Below, piece by piece: positions 44,416 to 52,835 of a DNA stretch of 64,000 nucleotides (within the stretch, counting starts at the first letter, position 1; every line of letters begins with the position of its first letter). The notes under the pieces are model-generated. The model was not told the origin of the DNA, did not search any database, and saw nothing but the letters and a program-made list of their open reading frames with translations. The DNA comes from Symmachiella dynata (GTDB taxonomy: Bacteria > Planctomycetota > Planctomycetia > Planctomycetales > Planctomycetaceae): assembly GCF_007747995.1 (NCBI RefSeq), contig NZ_CP036276.1, positions 2,285,001 through 2,349,000 of the forward strand, written 5' to 3'. The position numbers were made by a program, and so were the translations under genes.

Positions 44416-45024
44416 ATGGAAACCTTACAGACTTATTTCAGCGGGCCGATGCTCGTGCCCAGCGTATTGCTGGGGCTGGTCTGTCTGTACTGGTTGTTTG
44501 TCATCCTGGGTGCGTTTGACATCGAATTGTTTGATTTTGACATCGATGTCGGCGCGGGAGACGGCTCCATCTTTGATGTGGGGTTAATCTCGTTGAAGTT
44601 CATCAACCTGGGCGATGTGCCATTGATGATTTGGGGCAGCGTCTTCAGTTTGGCGTTTTGGATAATGACGGCGCTCGTTGTCGATCGACCCGATGTCGGC
44701 GGAGATCTCCGTCCTTGGATGATCGTGTTGGGTAGCGGTTTTCTAGCGGTCCTAGTGACGAAAGTCATCACCAACCCGCTGCGTGGTAAGTTCACCGTGA
44801 AGGAACCGAACACGCTTGAGGAACTGCTGGGGCGGGAATGCACGATTACTGTGGATACAAACGAAAAACACGGACAAGCGAATGTCCCGTCCGACGGGGC
44901 ACCGCTGCTACTGAATGTCCGAACTCACGAAGGCACACTGACCAAAGGAACTACGGTCAGGATTGTTGATTTTGATCAGGAAACGCACCTTTATTACGTC
45001 AGCAACTCTGACCTGGAGGAATAG
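44416..45024 (+). CDS. YqiJ-like membrane protein with OB-fold-type tail
   Basis: 202 residues from the ATG at 44416. Three hydrophobic segments (VPSVLLGLVCLYWLFVILGA, LMIWGSVFSLAFWIMTALV and MIVLGSGFLAVLVTKVI) surround an Asp-rich loop. The soluble C-terminus (LGRECTITVDTNEKHGQAN ... TVRIVDFDQETHLYYV) resembles the OB-fold of NfeD/YqiJ proteins. In E. coli YqiJ is the membrane partner of the flotillin YqiK, and here too the flotillin gene follows at once (3 bp apart). The role is probably to organise flotillin membrane patches. Confidence 0.82.
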   Translation: METLQTYFSGPMLVPSVLLGLVCLYWLFVILGAFDIELFDFDIDVGAGDGSIFDVGLISLKFINLGDVPLMIWGSVFSLAFWIMTALVVDRPDVGGDLRPWMIVLGSGFLAVLVTKVITNPLRGKFTVKEPNTLEELLGRECTITVDTNEKHGQANVPSDGAPLLLNVRTHEGTLTKGTTVRIVDFDQETHLYYVSNSDLEE

Positions 45025-45027
45025 AAG

Positions 45028-47115
45028 ATGGAAATATTAATTGGTGGAGCAATCGCGATAGTCCTGGGTTTGGCTACGATGGTGATCCGTTGCTATCGCA
45101 AGGTCGGACCGGAAGAAGCGTTGGTTCGATCCGGTCAAGGTGGTTTGGCTGTCATCACCGGACGAGGATTACTTGTCTATCCCGTGCTGCACCGCGTCGA
45201 GCAGATGGATCTGTCGGTCAAGCGGATTGAAATTACACGTCGCGGTGAGGCGGGGTTGATCTGTCGCGATAATATCCGTGCGGACATTGAAGTCGCCTTT
45301 TTCGTCCGTGTGAACAATACCGATGACGATATTAAGAATGTCGCTCAATCTTTAGGGTGCCGTCGGGCATCGGATCAAAAGGCGCTGATCGAGTTGTTCG
45401 ATGCCAAGTTTTCCGAAGCATTGAAAACTGTTGGTAAGCAATTCGATTTTGTCGAACTGTACAACGAGCGGGATAAATTCAAGGTCGAAATCCTCAATGT
45501 CATTGGTACGGACCTCAATGGTTACGTCCTGGACGACTGTGCCATCGACTTCCTGGAACAGACGCCGATCGAATTACTCAGCCCGAATAATATTCTCGAC
45601 GCCGAAGGGATTAAGAAGATCACCGAGCTGACGGCAAAAGAATTCGTGCAAGCGAACAATTACACCCGCGAAAAAGAAAAAACGATTAAGAAGCAAGACG
45701 TGGAAGCCCAGGAAGCGATTCTGGAGTTGGAGCGTCAACGGGTCGAAGCGGTTGAAAAGCAGAAACGCGAAATTGCTGAAGTCTCCGCTCGCGAACAAGC
45801 CGAAGCGAAACGCGTCTCGGAAGAAGAACGTCTCAAAGGAGAACGGGCACGGATTACGACGGAAGAGGAAATCAGTATTTCTGAGGAAAATAAAGAACGG
45901 CAGATCATTGTCGCCCGCAAGAGCAAAGAGCGGACCGATGCGGTCGAAACCGAACGGGTCGAAAAAGACCGCATGCTGGAAGCGACCGAGCGTGAACGGA
46001 TCGTGACATTGGCACAGATCGACAAAGAAAAAGCGGTCGAAGTCGAAAAACGGAATATTCAAGACGTGATCCGCGAGCGGGTTGTCGTCGAACGGGCGGT
46101 TGTTGAACAACAGGAAAAAATCAAAGATACCGAAGAGTTCGCCACCGCCGACCGGCTCAAACAGGTGACTGTCACCAAAGCCGAAATGGATGCCCAGCAA
46201 GCCTTGGTCAAAGAAGTCAAAGCGGCCGAAGCGTCGAAGGCTGCTGCCGATTTCCTGGCCGAACAACGCATCGTCGAGGCCGAAGCGGAACGGGCTGCCG
46301 CCGAGAAAGAAACGTTGGCGCAAAAAATGTTGGCCGAAGCCAAGACCGCCAATGCGGCCGCTATTGGGCTGGCCGATGCCCAGGTGCTTGAAGCCAAGGC
46401 AGCTGCCATCGAAAAAGAGGGTACCGCCGAAGCGAACGTGTTGCAGCGTAAAGCCGTTGCTGAAGCGAAAGGCATCGAAGCCCGCGCCTCTGCAGTCGAA
46501 AAAGAAGGCACGGCCGAAGCCAGTGTGATGCACCTCAAGTTCACCAGCGAAGCCAAGGGCATCGAGGAAAAAGCCAACGCCATGAAACTGTTCGACGGAG
46601 TCGGACGCGAACACGAAGAATTCAAATTGCGGCTCAACAAAGAGAAGGACATCGAAATCGCCGCGATCAGCGCACAACAAGAGATCGCCGAGTCCCAAGC
46701 AGGGATCGTGGGCGAAGCCCTCAAATCGGCCCGTATCGACATCGTGGGCGGCGAAACGACCTTCTTCGACAAGATCGTCGACTCGATCAAAGCCGGGAAA
46801 TCGGTCGATCGCTTTGTGCACAACAGCGAAGTGCTGACCGATGTGAAGAATTCGTTCTTCAACGGCAATCCGGAATATTTCCGCGACAAATTGCAGGAGT
46901 TTGTCGACCAGTTCAATATGAGCTTCGACGACGTCAAAGACCTGTCCGTGGCGGCATTGATCGGAAAAATGCTGACGCTCACCGACAGCGATGAATCGAA
47001 GTCCGAATTGAATCGCATGCTCAGCGCCGTCAAAGGGATGGGAATCGCGGATAAGAAGGTTAATACGCTGGACATCAGTGGCCAATCGCTGACCGTCAGC
47101 GGCAAGAAGAGTTGA
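45028..47115 (+). CDS. Flotillin-family protein (YqiK-like)
   Basis: 695 residues. One N-terminal membrane segment (ILIGGAIAIVLGLATMVI) is followed by the SPFH/band 7 domain at about 25-200 (YRKVGPEEALVRSGQGG, then RRGEAGLICRDNIRADIEVAF). Residues 210-550 are a charged coiled coil with a tandem Ala/Glu repeat (KEGTAEANVLQRKAVAEAKG, then again KEGTAEASVMHLKFTSEAKG). The C-terminal 130 residues are a separate domain not seen in ordinary flotillins (NPEYFRDKLQEFVDQFNMSF). GGAGG lies 8 bases before the start, inside the previous gene's end. It should form membrane scaffolds. Confidence 0.92.
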   Translation: MEILIGGAIAIVLGLATMVIRCYRKVGPEEALVRSGQGGLAVITGRGLLVYPVLHRVEQMDLSVKRIEITRRGEAGLICRDNIRADIEVAFFVRVNNTDDDIKNVAQSLGCRRASDQKALIELFDAKFSEALKTVGKQFDFVELYNERDKFKVEILNVIGTDLNGYVLDDCAIDFLEQTPIELLSPNNILDAEGIKKITELTAKEFVQANNYTREKEKTIKKQDVEAQEAILELERQRVEAVEKQKREIAEVSAREQAEAKRVSEEERLKGERARITTEEEISISEENKERQIIVARKSKERTDAVETERVEKDRMLEATERERIVTLAQIDKEKAVEVEKRNIQDVIRERVVVERAVVEQQEKIKDTEEFATADRLKQVTVTKAEMDAQQALVKEVKAAEASKAAADFLAEQRIVEAEAERAAAEKETLAQKMLAEAKTANAAAIGLADAQVLEAKAAAIEKEGTAEANVLQRKAVAEAKGIEARASAVEKEGTAEASVMHLKFTSEAKGIEEKANAMKLFDGVGREHEEFKLRLNKEKDIEIAAISAQQEIAESQAGIVGEALKSARIDIVGGETTFFDKIVDSIKAGKSVDRFVHNSEVLTDVKNSFFNGNPEYFRDKLQEFVDQFNMSFDDVKDLSVAALIGKMLTLTDSDESKSELNRMLSAVKGMGIADKKVNTLDISGQSLTVSGKKS

Positions 47116-47128
47116 TCCCCAACGCCTC

Positions 47129-47157
47129 CCGGTTCCCAAACTTCATTTGGGAACCGG
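47129..47157. terminator. Hairpin after the flotillin gene
   Basis: A perfect 12-bp stem, CCGGTTCCCAAA / TTTGGGAACCGG, with a 5-base loop, followed by TCTTGT. There is no long T-run, so termination may be partial, leaving read-through to the ATPase gene. A related palindrome follows at 47252-47277. Confidence 0.55.
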
Positions 47158-47251
47158 TCTTGTAGAAGCTCGACGTCGACTCCGGTTTTCAGGCTGACGC
47201 GTGTGGACCAATCGTCAAGAGCAGTCGGCGAAGCGGAGCCTCGCGAAGATG

Positions 47252-47277
47252 CGTTCCCAAGCAGAGCTAGGGAACGA
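47252..47277. repeat. GTTCCC...GGGAAC palindromic repeat
   Basis: CGTTCCCAAGCAGAGC followed by TAGGGAACG forms a hairpin sharing its GTTCCC/GGGAAC arms with 47129-47157, so the two may be copies of one palindromic family. Confidence 0.5.
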
Positions 47278-47308
47278 GTTGGAAGAGGCCTGAGAATGGA
47301 ATGCGAAT

Positions 47309-47373
47309 GTAGGCTCCTAATGCCTACAGTCTAAAGCCTAAAGTCTAATTGTCTCTGTGCCTCCGTGGTGAAC
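47309..47373. repeat. CACGGAGG-type element, one-armed copy
   Basis: GTAGGCTCCTAATGCCTACA and CTAAAGCC match the inner repeats of the elements at 11991 and 59556. They are followed by one outer arm, GTCTCTGTGCCTCCGTGGTG. The facing arm is absent. It ends 29 bp before the giant ATPase gene. Confidence 0.65.
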
Positions 47374-47402
47374 TTTAATCGCGAAAGTCGGAAATCCTCA
47401 CA

Positions 47403-50400
47403 ATGGCTCAAGCAGAACTCGAAAATACCGCTGACGAGGCGGAACCGGCGGTTGAGCTGCAGGGGGGCACGTATGAGATCATCCGCAACCGCCTGACCAC
47501 GCACGGACAGGATCTGCGGGCACGGTTGAATCAATTGAACGAGGCCCGGAAAACGGTCTTCGGCTCAATCGACACGGTGCTGACCTCGACCGAGCGGATT
47601 ACGACGGTCCACAATTGCGTCCCCCGGGATATGGTGGCAGCCGGCCAGCGGTTTCTGTTCGGCTACAACGTCCATTTCGGATTAAAGACTGAGCGGAACC
47701 TTTCCGATGTTTTTGCCGCCTACGAATTCAAGGAAGGGACGTTCCACGAGATCTCGTTGGATCTAATTGGCGATCCGCAATTCGAAAAAGATTTTCAGGA
47801 CGTCTATCGTTATTACAAGAACGCGGTCTTCGCCAAGTTTTTCGTCCGTGGTCCGCACCTGTACATGATCTTTCGCGTTGGCAAGGGCGTGGGGGACATC
47901 AAGACCTTCAAATGGGTCATCCAGGGCGAAGAGCTGGTCTACGTTGATAACCGCAGCGACCACGAAGTCCGTTATCCGCCGCAACACGAATTTGAGTGGA
48001 CCCGCACGCATCGCGACTTGCATCAAACGGGACGCCACCCGCACATTTCTATCGATGATCGGATTTTCGTCGAAACGATTGGCGGCGACCTGACGATCAA
48101 AGTCGAGAATAACACCGATTCGGGCGAGGGGATTTACGCCGAACCGGTGGACGACCCGGATCAAACGCTGGACGATGCGGAAATCCATTATGCGTTGGTA
48201 GGGAATGTGATCTTGCTCAAGATCCGTCCTTATCAGGAAACGGCATTCCGTTACTTCGTGTACAACGACAAACTGAAACAGGCGCAGCGGCTTGATTCGC
48301 TAGAATACGCCTGTGTGTTATTGCCCGATGACCACGGTCTGATTTTTGCCGACGGATATTATTTGCAAACGGGGCTGTGCAAGACGTTCGGCAGCAATTT
48401 ATCCGACATGGTCTTCGAACGGCGTATTGCTGCGACGAACGGCGAAGATTATCTCTACGTGTTTTATAACCGCCTAGCCGGCGTGTACGTGTTGTTGCAA
48501 TACAATCTCATCGAACAACGTGTAGAGACTCCGGTGATTTGTAGCGGATTTACATTCTTTCCCAGCGGCGAAATGGTCTGTTTCAAAGCGCAGGAGGAAC
48601 CGCAAAAACACCATGCGGTGCAGATATGGCAAACGCCTTACGTCGACGAAGACTTTGCTCCGCCGGCACAAACCGACTCCTACCTGTTCAAGATCGGCAA
48701 CAAAGATGTCGTACGGGGCATGGCGGAGTGCCATGAGTTGTTGGAGCTGATCGAAAAAGAGGACACCTACGCCAATCTGTACGTCGACATCGTCAAAGAG
48801 TCGACCGGTGTGCTTGATTCGTATTTCTGGATTGATCAGCCCGAGACATTCGAACTCAAGGAACCGCTGACAAAAATTCGCGACGCAGCCGGCGCGGCAA
48901 TCGACGAATTCGACAAGGTGCTCCGCGTCAAACAAGACACGGCCCAACAGACCAAACGGGTGCGGGAGAAAACCCGCGAGATCGTTTCCGCGGTGGGCCG
49001 CAAGCGATTCGACCATATCAACGACTTCGTCGGCTCGCTACGGGACCTGCGTTCGGTGCGGGGAGATATTATTTCCTTGCGCGATTTGCGGTATGTGGAC
49101 GAGCCGCTGATTGAGTCGTTGGAGACGGAAGTCTCTGAAGAAGCGGATAAATTGGCGCAGCGGTGCGTGACCTTTTTGCTCGACCCGGCAGCGCTGACTC
49201 CCTATGAGCAGAAGGTGGCTGACGAACAGGCAAAAATTGGCGAGTTGACGAAAGTCGCCGACGCCAAAGTCGTGGAAGAGGAAATTGCCAAGAGCGCCGC
49301 CGAGTTGGAAATGCTGATCGAGATCGTCAGCAATCTGAAGATCGACGATGCGACGCAGCGGACGGCGATCATCGATAATATTTCGGCGATCTTCTCCACC
49401 GTCAACGCTGCCCGCGCCGCACTGAAGAACAAGTCACACGAGTTGTTATCGGTCGAAGGAATTGCCGAGTTCGGCTCGCAGATGAAATTGCTCAATCAGG
49501 GCGTCGTCAATTATCTAGATATCTGCGACTCGCCGGATAAGTGCGAAGAATTCCTCACGAAGGTGATGATCCAAATTGAGGAGTTGGAAGGCCGGTTCGC
49601 GGAATTCGACGAGTTTGTGTTGCAATTAACGGAAAAACGGGAAGAAATCTACAACGCGTTTGAAACGCGAAAACTATCGCTGGTCGAAGCCCGCAATAAG
49701 CGCGCGGGTGCCCTGGCCAATGCGGCGGACCGGATTCTCAAAGGGATCAAGACCCGCGTGGAGAGTCTGGAGTCGATCAACGACATCAACGGCTATTTCG
49801 CGTCGGATTTAATGATTGAGAAGGTCCGCGATATCGTCAAGCAATTGCAGGAGCTTGATGATTCGGTCAAGGTCGACGACATCCAAAGCCGGTTGAAAAC
49901 AGTCAAAGAGGATGCGGTCCGGCAATTGAAGGACCGGCAAGAGCTCTTTGTCGACGGCGCGAACATCATCAAACTGGGCGGACACCAGTTCACGGTGAAT
50001 GTCCAGGCGCTCGATCTGACGACTGTGCTGCGCGATGGCGAGATGAACCTGCATCTGACCGGAACGAATTTCTTCGAGCCGATTGAGAATGAAGAACTGA
50101 TTGCTACACGCGACGTTTGGGACCAGGAGGTGGTTTCCGAAAATCAGTCCGTCTATCGCGGTGAATACCTCACCTATAAAATCCTACGGTCTCTGTCGCA
50201 GCCGGGGGCGGAACCTTCTATGGAGGACGTCCGCCAATACGATGCGGATCAACTCACGGCCTTCGTGCAGCGATTTATGGGGCCGCGGTATGGCGAAGCG
50301 TACGTCAAAGGGGTCCATGATCACGATGCGGTCAAACTGGTCGCAGACCTGTTAGAGATGGAATCCACCATCGGCTTGCTGCGGTACCATACCCGCGCGC

Positions 50401-52835
50401 GTGCATTGGCCTTGGTGGTCTGGCAGCATTTTGTGGACAAGAAACAAAAGACGTTGTTGACAGCCAAGCTCAAAGGGTTCGGCACGATCACGCAACTCTT
50501 CCCGGCCACCGTTGCGCAGGCGCAATACGTGGCGGAATTGCAAAACGTATTGCAGGCCGCAACGGCCGAGGTGGATTTGTTTTCCGAGACGTTTTTGCCC
50601 TCTGCAGCGGAATACCTGTTTCACGTGCTGGTTGGCGATGGGTTTGCCATCAGCCCGCAAGCGGCGGATTTGTTTCGCCGGTTTGAAGAGCATCTGCACC
50701 ACAACGGGTTTTCGGACAAATTCGCCGCTTCACTCAAAGGCGTGCATCGCGAACCCGCGAGTGCGTTTTCCTTGGCCAGAGATTGGGTGGGCGCCTTCAT
50801 CGAACAACAAGACGAGGCCGCTGCCGAAGACTATGTGGACGAAGTGGCCGGTTTGCTACTGGAAGGCAAACTCAACGACCGGCAAATCGTCAATGCGTCG
50901 GTGACACGCGACGTGGCGGGGTTGCTGGGGACACACGCGGCGATCCAAGAGGGTGGCTATCACCTTAGTTACGGCGACTTCACGCAAAAACTCGCGGAGT
51001 ACGACCGACAAGTCGTCCCGAGGTTTAATAGCTATGTGCAGTTGAAGCGGGACATTGTGGAAACGGCGCGCGATGAGATGAAACTCGAAGAGTTTCGTCC
51101 ACGGGTGTTGACGTCGTTTGTGCGGAACCGTTTGTTGGATGAGGTTTACCTGCCGGTCATCGGCGATAACTTCGCCAAACAAATTGGCGCTGCAGGGGAA
51201 GGAAAACGGACCGACCGGATGGGGCTGTTGCTACTGGTCTCTCCCCCCGGTTATGGGAAAACCACGTTGATGGAATATGTCGCCAATCGCTTGGGGGTGA
51301 TCTTTATGAAGATCAACGGCCCGGCCATTGGACATCAAGTGACGTCGCTGGATCCAGATGAAGCACCCAATGCCGGTGCGCGCGAAGAAGTCGAGAAGCT
51401 CAATCTCGCCTTGGAAATGGGCGACAACGTGATGATTTATCTCGACGATATTCAACACTGCAATCCCGAGTTTTTACAAAAGTTCATTTCGTTGTGCGAT
51501 GCGACGCGAAAGATCGAAGGCGTGTATAAAGGCCGCACGCGGACCTATGACCTGCGGGGCCGCAAAGTCGCCGTGGTCATGGCGGGCAACCCTTACACCG
51601 AAAGCGGCGAGAAATTTCAGATTCCCGACATGCTTTCCAACCGGGCTGATATTTATAACCTGGGCGAAATCATCGGCGAACATGCGGCATCGTTTGAGAT
51701 GAGCTATCTGGAAAACTGCCTGACGTCGAATTCCGTGTTGAATCATCTCGCCACGCGCAGCCAGAAAGATGTTTACGCCGTGATTCGCATGGCTGAGCGG
51801 GACAGTGCTGAAGGAGTGGAGTTGGAAGGCAACTACTCCTCCGCGGAACTGGGTGAGATGGTGGCGACGATGAAAAAACTGATGCGGGTTCGCGACGTCA
51901 TTTTGGCGGTCAATCGCGAATACATCCGCTCCGCCGCTCAATCAGACGATTACCGCACAGAACCGGCATTCAAGCTGCAAGGGTCGTATCGGAACATGAA
52001 TCGCATTGCTGAAAAAGTGGTGCCGGTGATGAACGATGACGAATTGCAGGCTTTGATTGTTTCGAACTACGAGAACGATTCACAGACGCTGACCTCCGAT
52101 GCTGAAGCCAACATGCTCAAGTTCAAAGAACTGATGGGCATCCTCAATGAAGATGAGGCCCAACGTTGGGAGTCGATCAAACGCTCGTTCCAGCAGAACG
52201 TCAAACTCAAAGGAGTTGCGCCCGACGATAAGATTGGGCAGGTGATTATGCAGATGGGTTCGTTCACCGACGGGCTGGAATCCATTCGCCGCGCGATGAC
52301 CGACGGTATGGCGGCGATGGCCGAAGAGGACGATGATTCCGCTGTGCTGGAAGGACATGTAACGCAACTCGTCGCACAAATCAGCGGCCTACGGGAAGGG
52401 CTGGACGCGATCCACGGTAGTTTAGCGGACGGGATTCCCGCACTCGTCACAGCTGCGCAAGCCGCCGAACGCGTGACGCCAGCGCCAATTGCCGAAGTCG
52501 AGCCACCGCCGCAACAACCCGAACCGGAATCGCAGGTCACTAAAATTCCGGCTCCCGAAGTGGTTGATGCGCCATTCGACCAGCAACAGGATGACGAAGA
52601 ACCCGCAACAACGGGCGATAACCGTCACAAGATTACGGTCGTGAACAAAATGCCGCGCAGCATCTACAATGTGCTACAACAGCAGTTCGAGTTGATGAAC
52701 AGCTGGATGAAACCGCTACTCGACGCTTCCAATTCGCAGTCAGCCGACATTAAAACATTACGCAGCCAACTGCATCAATGCTTGAAGGACTACAAGCAAA
52801 TGCTGCGGCGGATCGAACGTAGGGAAGACGGTTAA
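47403..52835 (+). CDS. Giant AAA ATPase, DUF3686 'DNA repair ATPase' type
   Basis: 1810 residues. The first 450 form a beta-rich, propeller-like region matching what I recall of DUF3686 (RFLFGYNVHFGLKTERNLSD, then VFYNRLAGVYVLLQYNLIEQ). Residues 480-880 are mostly helical and coiled. A mixed region follows to 1270. The AAA module then has Walker A SPPGYGKTTL near 1280, Walker B NVMIYLDDIQHCNPEF near 1340 and VAVVMAGNPYTESGE after that, resembling MoxR-type AAA proteins. The C-terminal 170 residues include a Pro/Glu-rich linker and a final helix. It probably forms a hexameric remodelling machine. It follows the YqiJ-like and flotillin genes on the same strand, suggesting a joint membrane-linked role. 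Confidence 0.85.
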   Translation: MAQAELENTADEAEPAVELQGGTYEIIRNRLTTHGQDLRARLNQLNEARKTVFGSIDTVLTSTERITTVHNCVPRDMVAAGQRFLFGYNVHFGLKTERNLSDVFAAYEFKEGTFHEISLDLIGDPQFEKDFQDVYRYYKNAVFAKFFVRGPHLYMIFRVGKGVGDIKTFKWVIQGEELVYVDNRSDHEVRYPPQHEFEWTRTHRDLHQTGRHPHISIDDRIFVETIGGDLTIKVENNTDSGEGIYAEPVDDPDQTLDDAEIHYALVGNVILLKIRPYQETAFRYFVYNDKLKQAQRLDSLEYACVLLPDDHGLIFADGYYLQTGLCKTFGSNLSDMVFERRIAATNGEDYLYVFYNRLAGVYVLLQYNLIEQRVETPVICSGFTFFPSGEMVCFKAQEEPQKHHAVQIWQTPYVDEDFAPPAQTDSYLFKIGNKDVVRGMAECHELLELIEKEDTYANLYVDIVKESTGVLDSYFWIDQPETFELKEPLTKIRDAAGAAIDEFDKVLRVKQDTAQQTKRVREKTREIVSAVGRKRFDHINDFVGSLRDLRSVRGDIISLRDLRYVDEPLIESLETEVSEEADKLAQRCVTFLLDPAALTPYEQKVADEQAKIGELTKVADAKVVEEEIAKSAAELEMLIEIVSNLKIDDATQRTAIIDNISAIFSTVNAARAALKNKSHELLSVEGIAEFGSQMKLLNQGVVNYLDICDSPDKCEEFLTKVMIQIEELEGRFAEFDEFVLQLTEKREEIYNAFETRKLSLVEARNKRAGALANAADRILKGIKTRVESLESINDINGYFASDLMIEKVRDIVKQLQELDDSVKVDDIQSRLKTVKEDAVRQLKDRQELFVDGANIIKLGGHQFTVNVQALDLTTVLRDGEMNLHLTGTNFFEPIENEELIATRDVWDQEVVSENQSVYRGEYLTYKILRSLSQPGAEPSMEDVRQYDADQLTAFVQRFMGPRYGEAYVKGVHDHDAVKLVADLLEMESTIGLLRYHTRARALALVVWQHFVDKKQKTLLTAKLKGFGTITQLFPATVAQAQYVAELQNVLQAATAEVDLFSETFLPSAAEYLFHVLVGDGFAISPQAADLFRRFEEHLHHNGFSDKFAASLKGVHREPASAFSLARDWVGAFIEQQDEAAAEDYVDEVAGLLLEGKLNDRQIVNASVTRDVAGLLGTHAAIQEGGYHLSYGDFTQKLAEYDRQVVPRFNSYVQLKRDIVETARDEMKLEEFRPRVLTSFVRNRLLDEVYLPVIGDNFAKQIGAAGEGKRTDRMGLLLLVSPPGYGKTTLMEYVANRLGVIFMKINGPAIGHQVTSLDPDEAPNAGAREEVEKLNLALEMGDNVMIYLDDIQHCNPEFLQKFISLCDATRKIEGVYKGRTRTYDLRGRKVAVVMAGNPYTESGEKFQIPDMLSNRADIYNLGEIIGEHAASFEMSYLENCLTSNSVLNHLATRSQKDVYAVIRMAERDSAEGVELEGNYSSAELGEMVATMKKLMRVRDVILAVNREYIRSAAQSDDYRTEPAFKLQGSYRNMNRIAEKVVPVMNDDELQALIVSNYENDSQTLTSDAEANMLKFKELMGILNEDEAQRWESIKRSFQQNVKLKGVAPDDKIGQVIMQMGSFTDGLESIRRAMTDGMAAMAEEDDDSAVLEGHVTQLVAQISGLREGLDAIHGSLADGIPALVTAAQAAERVTPAPIAEVEPPPQQPEPESQVTKIPAPEVVDAPFDQQQDDEEPATTGDNRHKITVVNKMPRSIYNVLQQQFELMNSWMKPLLDASNSQSADIKTLRSQLHQCLKDYKQMLRRIERREDG

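Follow-up and report, generated by a model that had tools for sequence, protein, structure and literature searches.

A YqiJ-like protein, a flotillin, and a giant AAA+ ATPase recur together across bacterial phyla: a Symmachiella dynata copy of a candidate membrane-stress module

The window analyzed here is a 64,000-nucleotide stretch of Symmachiella dynata DNA (bases 2285001-2349000 of one 7.77-Mb contig). On its + strand, within positions 44416-52835, lie three genes encoding a YqiJ-like membrane protein, a flotillin, and a giant AAA+ ATPase. The first open reading frame (ORF; 44416-45024) specifies a YqiJ/NfeD-like membrane protein of 202 amino acids (aa), counted from an ATG, although the ORF as listed begins one codon earlier, with a GTG. 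Only 3 bp separate it from the second ORF (45028-47115), a YqiK-type flotillin of 695 aa, and a 287-bp gap precedes the third (47403-52835), which encodes an 1810-aa AAA+ protein with a DUF3686-DUF7902-AAA architecture. An earlier interpretation of the letters alone (the sequence-only reading) had placed three same-strand genes here and likened the first two to Escherichia coli yqiJ-yqiK, and the ORFs and the profile matches described below agree with both statements.

The first protein is best recognized through its relatives. Against Pfam, the window protein returned NfeD only, below threshold (E 0.031), but a profile built from its planctomycete relatives matched E. coli YqiJ (E 1.4e-9). 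Pfam YqiJ_N was matched by 8 of the 23 members of our alignment A5, with the window protein among those lacking a match. Because A5 includes E. coli YqiJ, an hhalign run with this alignment was circular and was not used. The second protein has an N-terminal hydrophobic segment, an SPFH/Band_7 domain, a long charged, helical-looking region, and a C-terminal tail. Band_7 scored 51.1 bits in the profile search of the genome (cut-off 23.6), hmmscan of the window flotillin alone returned no Pfam family, and among 17 flotillin relatives, five matched Band_7 and none matched the Pfam Flot domain. The flotillin profile (A2) matched E. coli YqiK at E 2.3e-59, and hhalign aligned 378 columns of the two with a probability of 99.9. 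Three loci have an additional short SPFH-like ORF of 177-183 aa, placed after yqiJ and before the flotillin gene (L092:6999-7550, L139:8227-8778, and L141:6832-7365).

Our planctomycete sample comprised 294 genomes, the window's own included, and was accompanied by 14 control genomes. DUF3686, which has a single match in the window's genome, was detected in 39/294 planctomycete genomes and 0/14 controls. For 37 of the other 38 planctomycete ATPase loci, we fetched the neighborhood, and in all 37 a flotillin gene lay directly upstream of the ATPase gene on the same strand. A profile located YqiJ upstream in 37/37 of these loci and a single-sequence search in 36/37; 35 of the 37 have at least 3.2 kb upstream, and the YqiJ of one (L060) is a fragment at a contig edge. 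At the 38th locus (G271), genome searches found the flotillin and then the ATPase.

The same arrangement extends well beyond Planctomycetota. Our named loci are the best 80 of 534 confirmed ATPase relatives, so they are skewed to close ones, the best being Planctomycetaceae. Of the named loci, 63 extend 3.2 kb or more upstream; in 60 of these the flotillin precedes the ATPase on the same strand, and in 57 YqiJ is present as well. The genomes of all six exceptions (L093, L097, L102, L126, L130, and L139) contain this type of flotillin. In L139, both partner genes adjoin the ATPase gene but on the opposite strand, and L126 and L130 share a variant in which the flotillin is more divergent (772-775 aa), YqiJ is not recognized, and the ATPase is followed by a PLD-like gene. 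By title, named trio loci come from Planctomycetota, Bacteroidota, Verrucomicrobiota, Desulfobacterales, Clostridia and other Bacillota, Kiritimatiellota, and Chitinispirillaceae, while the single Chlorobi locus, at a contig start, has the flotillin and ATPase alone. In a plasmid collection, 12 records matched the ATPase, the longest of which look like whole chromosomes. The trio was found by profile in 7/7 plasmid-collection records, from Pseudomonas (pQBR103), Streptomyces, Deinococcus, Vibrio, Proteus, Nonomuraea, and Halomonas, which represent Pseudomonadota, Actinomycetota, and Deinococcota. In total, the trio was seen in ten phyla by record title, a count that includes a phylum placement for Chitinispirillaceae that we assume. 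Because it recurs in ten phyla, the trio is more than a chance association. The three-gene linkage across phyla that the sequence-only reading had asked about therefore holds, and the ATPase was not usually found without the flotillin, the outcome that the sequence-only reading had named as a refutation.

The linkage also holds in the reverse direction. The flotillin profile matched 55/294 planctomycete genomes at E <= 1e-20, and these fell into two groups. The first (41 genomes, E <= 1.1e-200) consists of all 39 ATPase genomes together with G221 and G252, whose contigs stop 36 and 245 bp past the flotillin. The second (14 genomes, E 1.5e-69 to 2.8e-42) contains no genome with an ATPase match, with some of these being incomplete (67-93%). 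A YqiJ-like ORF was present in 10/10 fetched loci with an ATPase-less flotillin. The search scores at most three flotillin candidates per genome, so weaker extra copies may be missed. Because these groups match ATPase presence, we distinguish two flotillin classes in the planctomycete sample, one that pairs with the ATPase and one that does not. The linkage of the trio is real, deep, and two-way. Many bacterial flotillins have no clear function: in the papers sampled, knock-outs of E. coli YqiK and P. aeruginosa paFlo3 had weak effects or none, although loss of a YqiK-family gene in Shewanella had clear ones. A class that, across the 294 planctomycete genomes, is found only with this ATPase or at a contig end offers a testable partner.

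The two classes also differ at the flotillin C terminus. The sequence-only reading had described an extra C-terminal domain as a natural docking site for the ATPase, and an extra part does appear in the sequence, as 120 residues past a conserved IVGG motif (residues 576-695, positions 46753-47112). A profile built from the flotillin sequence after IVGG matched the main flotillin in 108/108 ATPase-linked loci, 17 of which had been used to build it. At E <= 0.001, it also matched 6/7 further ATPase-linked flotillins from the plasmid collection, with those of Deinococcus and Halomonas being weak, and 0/9 ATPase-less flotillins (eight planctomycete proteins and E. coli YqiK). This pattern is consistent with docking of the ATPase on the tail but does not prove it, and the tail may equally be a sign of common descent inside one flotillin clade. 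The distances of ATPase and flotillin are correlated across 90 loci (Mantel r 0.87, with no species-tree control), which is no proof of contact.

The giant protein matched DUF3686 (E 1.1e-188), DUF7902 (E 5.5e-28), and AAA (E 1.5e-6) in Pfam. We modeled it with AlphaFold2 in two parts, residues 1-870 (alignment A3, 62 sequences) and 855-1645 (A4, 61 sequences), with mean predicted local distance difference test scores of 86.4 and 88.1, respectively. In these models, residues 55-412 (47565-48638), inside DUF3686, form a beta-propeller that VIA-align compared with the DCAF1 WDR structure at Z 9.7 (root-mean-square deviation [rmsd] 5.9, 217 aligned), a score that backs the fold class rather than a family. 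Residues 486-848 (48858-49946), which take in DUF7902, are predicted to form long helices. The AAA+ module (residues 1234-1580, positions 51102-52142, Walker A at 1283-1288) gave CbbQ2 (Z 17.5, rmsd 3.9, 253 aligned) and NorQ (Z 16.7, rmsd 3.9, 242 aligned) as its top VIA-align matches, followed by dynein (Z 14.9, rmsd 5.1, 256 aligned). Foldseek ranked NorQ first, MCM chains second to fourth with CbbQ close behind, and RuvB 24th; neither RuvB nor MCM is among the 50 VIA-align matches listed, which proves nothing. Invariant in 17 ATPase sequences are the Walker A motif including K1286, D1348-D1349, N1396, R1414, and R1530, the last three of which we take to have the roles of their counterparts in MoxR-type AAA+ proteins. 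With Walker A and B motifs, conserved N and R residues, and a predicted fold nearest to MoxR proteins, the module appears to be of MoxR type, and the giant protein is probably an active MoxR-like remodeler. Odd reading frames were seen at two loci, with a 3320-aa ORF in L084 and a split ATPase in L090 (best ORF 887 aa).

If the tail does dock this protein, a more specific arrangement can be imagined, which we offer tentatively and consider doubtful on balance. The tail (roughly the first 45 residues after IVGG, extending to ~110 in most loci) could be a dedicated adaptor by which a propeller-MoxR unfoldase attaches to an SPFH cage, such that cage and AAA+ ring would act as one unit processing membrane-bound assemblies. 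This would be an analogue of ESCRT/Vps4 made from unrelated parts, and the adaptor would be what chiefly sets the two classes of YqiK-type flotillin apart.

Outside Planctomycetota, the genes found around the trio point toward the membrane. PspA and CesT accompany it in 18 of the best 80 named loci, all Bacteroidota by title. In two Bacteroidota loci, we read the order as XRE (divergent)-CesT-PspA-YqiJ-flotillin-ATPase, with which median neighbor positions agree, and one PspA and one CesT neighbor were confirmed by Pfam. The divergent XRE regulator lies upstream of CesT-PspA in L221 (592-1377, annotated as LexA family) and in Bacteroidota loci, and 1/3 scanned regulators had a Peptidase_S24 match above the Pfam cut-off. 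A Hymenobacter DG25B record from the plasmid collection is annotated as chaperone Tir, PspA, DUF1449, a hypothetical protein, and "DNA repair ATPase." On pQBR103, the order is YjfI-PspA-rhomboid-DUF2491-DUF350-DUF1190-glutathionylspermidine synthase-hypothetical (a YqiJ-like ORF)-SPFH-ATPase. PspA was present anywhere in the genome in 30/39 planctomycete trio genomes vs. 59/255 others (E <= 0.001; Fisher p ~1e-10, uncorrected for kinship). We did not count as PspA a coiled-coil neighbor of ~280 aa that resembles it and is found in five planctomycete loci (L056, L058, L064, L072, and L080), since the copy scanned, that of L080, has no Pfam match; in L058, an AAA ATPase gene adjoins the gene for this coiled-coil protein.

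The MoxR-like fold suggests a second way of reading the locus, in which the AAA+ ring matures or activates one membrane enzyme, as a NorQ/CbbQ-like client chaperone, and the flotillin and YqiJ serve as a localization scaffold with a purpose other than membrane repair. That MoxR activators head the VIA-align matches agrees with this, and so does the composition of the neighborhoods, where flotillin (95 loci) and YqiJ (82 loci) are the only clusters found at 20 or more loci, as would suit a client encoded elsewhere. However, the recurrent neighbors that we could name in other phyla were PspA, CesT, and polyamine genes rather than an enzyme operon, with most clusters being unannotated. MoxR activators usually stand beside a VWA partner, although no search aimed at one was made here. 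We consider a client chaperone unlikely, though worth keeping in mind.

A different function is implied by the label "DNA repair ATPase," which several database records give to relatives of the giant protein. Taken at its word, this would make it an ATPase that repairs DNA or maintains the chromosome while anchored to the membrane through the flotillin. Beyond this name in records and papers, RuvB P-loop matches (E 2.5e-5 in Pfam; 1.3e-5 in NCBIfam, far below its cut-off), the Foldseek ranks of MCM and RuvB, the S24-like domain of one XRE regulator, and a Shewanella YqiK-family knock-out with more spontaneous mutation and peroxide sensitivity (in the available part of PMC1468410) could be read in its favor. 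Yet a Pfam scan of the ATPase matched no DNA-binding family, MoxR proteins head its VIA-align matches, and PspA, CesT, and polyamine genes are again the partners that we could name in other phyla. The label has no visible basis apart from the name and the weak RuvB P-loop matches, so we do not favor DNA repair as the principal function and regard it as improbable. Among the articles listed under the name "DNA repair ATPase," none concerned this family by title, and the name is probably misleading for a family seen in ten phyla.

The surroundings of the window trio bear on the suggestion of DNA-linked defense made from the letters alone, which found no support. The trio is bordered by metabolic genes on the opposite strand, with GDPD, molybdopterin oxidoreductase, and hydantoinase at one end and subunits of xanthine-dehydrogenase type at the other, and PADLOC gave zero matches at E <= 0.001 on ten flanking proteins. 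Inside the ATPase itself, PADLOC matches were weak (LmuB at 20.8 bits over the helical region and mad8 at 13.4 bits), and no ATPase relative was confirmed in viral contigs or a phage collection. An anti-phage system would fit the patchy spread across planctomycete genomes, the 12 plasmid-collection records, and the rise of Pseudomonas aeruginosa PA3728-PA3732 in all phage-infected samples (PMC12041424, in its available part), but a phage-shock response would rise on infection anyway. We therefore do not favor a defense island here and consider anti-phage defense very improbable.

The spacer between flotillin and ATPase (47116-47402, + strand) raises the further question of whether, in the window's genome, the ATPase is transcribed apart and the three genes do not function as a unit. 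The strongest of its inverted repeats are a perfect 12-bp repeat with a 5-nt loop (47129-47157), shortly after the flotillin stop and with no T run, and a dispersed palindrome of the CGTTCCCAAGC...GCTNGGGAACG type (47252-47276) that has seven sites in the genome at up to one mismatch vs. 0 for a reversed control. The hairpin and the 287-bp gap would suit separate transcription, but gaps elsewhere are short (median 135 bp in 37 planctomycete loci and 124 bp in 69 named loci, with 26/106 below 60 bp), and the correlated distances of the two proteins also argue against it. Moreover, no terminator-like site was listed in the spacer, and sigma-70-like sites in the region were not above shuffled sequence, although planctomycete promoters may differ. 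Separate transcription thus seems rather improbable to us.

Considering these lines of evidence, we favor, with modest confidence, the reading that the locus is a planctomycete copy of a flotillin/YqiJ/AAA+ membrane-stress module in which an AAA+ remodeler acts on a flotillin platform. The YqiJ-like protein and flotillin would assemble into an oligomeric scaffold at the inner membrane, on its cytoplasmic side, and to this scaffold the giant ATPase would be recruited, probably via the flotillin C-terminal tail. Its beta-propeller may bind partners, its long helices would give reach, and its MoxR-like AAA+ domains presumably assemble into a ring. The ring would use ATP to remodel or dismantle assemblies there, be they PspA polymers, membrane complexes that have suffered damage, or the cage formed by the flotillin, with membrane remodeling as the likely output. 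The direction of a membrane platform for stress, also proposed in the sequence-only reading, is supported by the PspA and CesT neighbors in 18/80 named loci, the PspA/polyamine operon of pQBR103, and what is available of the published bac data described below.

A number of observations weigh against this reading. Neither PspA nor CesT was seen beside the window trio, and the two PspA genes of the window's genome lie elsewhere. DUF2170 had no match here, though the E. coli control matched, and CesT_Tir_1 had none either, with no control matched. Across Planctomycetota, PspA lies near the trio in just 2/39 genomes (G142 and G027), vs. 6/14 ATPase-less genomes in which it lies within ~3 kb of the flotillin (G041, G145, G044, G269, G023, and, below the Pfam cut-off, G214; loci including L193, L194, L196, L200, and L201). 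Given these counts, PspA is no special partner of the ATPase in this phylum, and because of them, we lowered our confidence in the membrane-stress reading slightly, to its present level, and raised it a little for the alternatives. Likewise, in the window's family, PspA is present in all 17 sampled genomes (10 with the trio and 7 without), so its genome-wide association with the trio vanishes there. Three flotillins, those of Deinococcus, Halomonas, and pQBR103, have short tails of 46-57 residues, and the tail profile does not match that of pQBR103. The Foldseek nearness of the AAA+ module to MCM and RuvB and the hairpin-bearing gap, which weakens the claim of a single transcript, belong here as well. 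Finally, in the available part of the published account, deletion of paFlo3, the annotated P. aeruginosa flotillin relative, lowered biofilm by just ~20%.

Our literature search found nothing on DUF3686/PF12458, with most subscription papers and supplements outside its reach, and nothing that paired flotillin with "DNA repair ATPase" and AAA or with MoxR and NfeD. Among known systems, the nearest to the AAA+ module is the MoxR family, as CbbQ and NorQ share its AAA fold, Walker motifs, and conserved N and R residues. However, their chains have ~230-270 residues, whereas here the module is placed toward the end of a giant propeller and helical protein. The first two genes are homologous to E. 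coli yqiJ-yqiK and stand in the same order. By contrast, no ATPase gene follows the E. coli pair, and YqiK is a 553-aa protein with a Pfam Flot domain and no match to the tail profile. A 2009 SPFH survey (PMC2636767) includes the YqiJ-YqiK operon, and the word ATPase is absent from its available part.

The bac operon of P. aeruginosa is a probable relative of the window trio, with BacE (PA14_16190) assigned by published annotation only and two locus tags equated from gene order. According to the available portions of the published work, bacA-bacF are co-transcribed by reverse transcription PCR, and mutation of bacA raises the levels of five partners 6.1- to 13.5-fold (PMC10948618). Of the encoded proteins, BacC is described as a short NfeD and BacD belongs to the SPFH proteins (PMC13086221), and the operon is treated further in PMC2587700 and PMC8855297. 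The rise of PA3728-PA3732 on phage infection (PMC12041424) belongs to the same body of data. The window cluster has no counterparts of PspA, CesT, or BacF.

The closest published description is that of Ravi et al. 2024 (PMC11237479), the only work found to match more than half of the terms joining these strands. In its available part, it reports YqiJ/flotillin/AAA+ operons with or without CesT-PspA and suggests a role in membrane dynamics. The window locus shares with these operons a YqiJ/YuaF-type membrane protein, recognized by the profile match to E. coli YqiJ, a flotillin, and an AAA+ ATPase with a beta-propeller and coiled coil, as seen in our predicted models. No PspA or CesT was seen in the window cluster, and we place it under the abbreviated form of the operon only. 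This type of operon was thus already predicted in print, though the available text of that paper gives no pairing counts and does not treat the flotillin tail, both of which come from the present analysis. What we add is the two-way pairing, a tail that tracks the ATPase, the predicted MoxR-like fold, and a probable link with the bac operon, such that one set of proteins brings together phage-shock protein genomics, the bac biofilm operon, and induction by phage.

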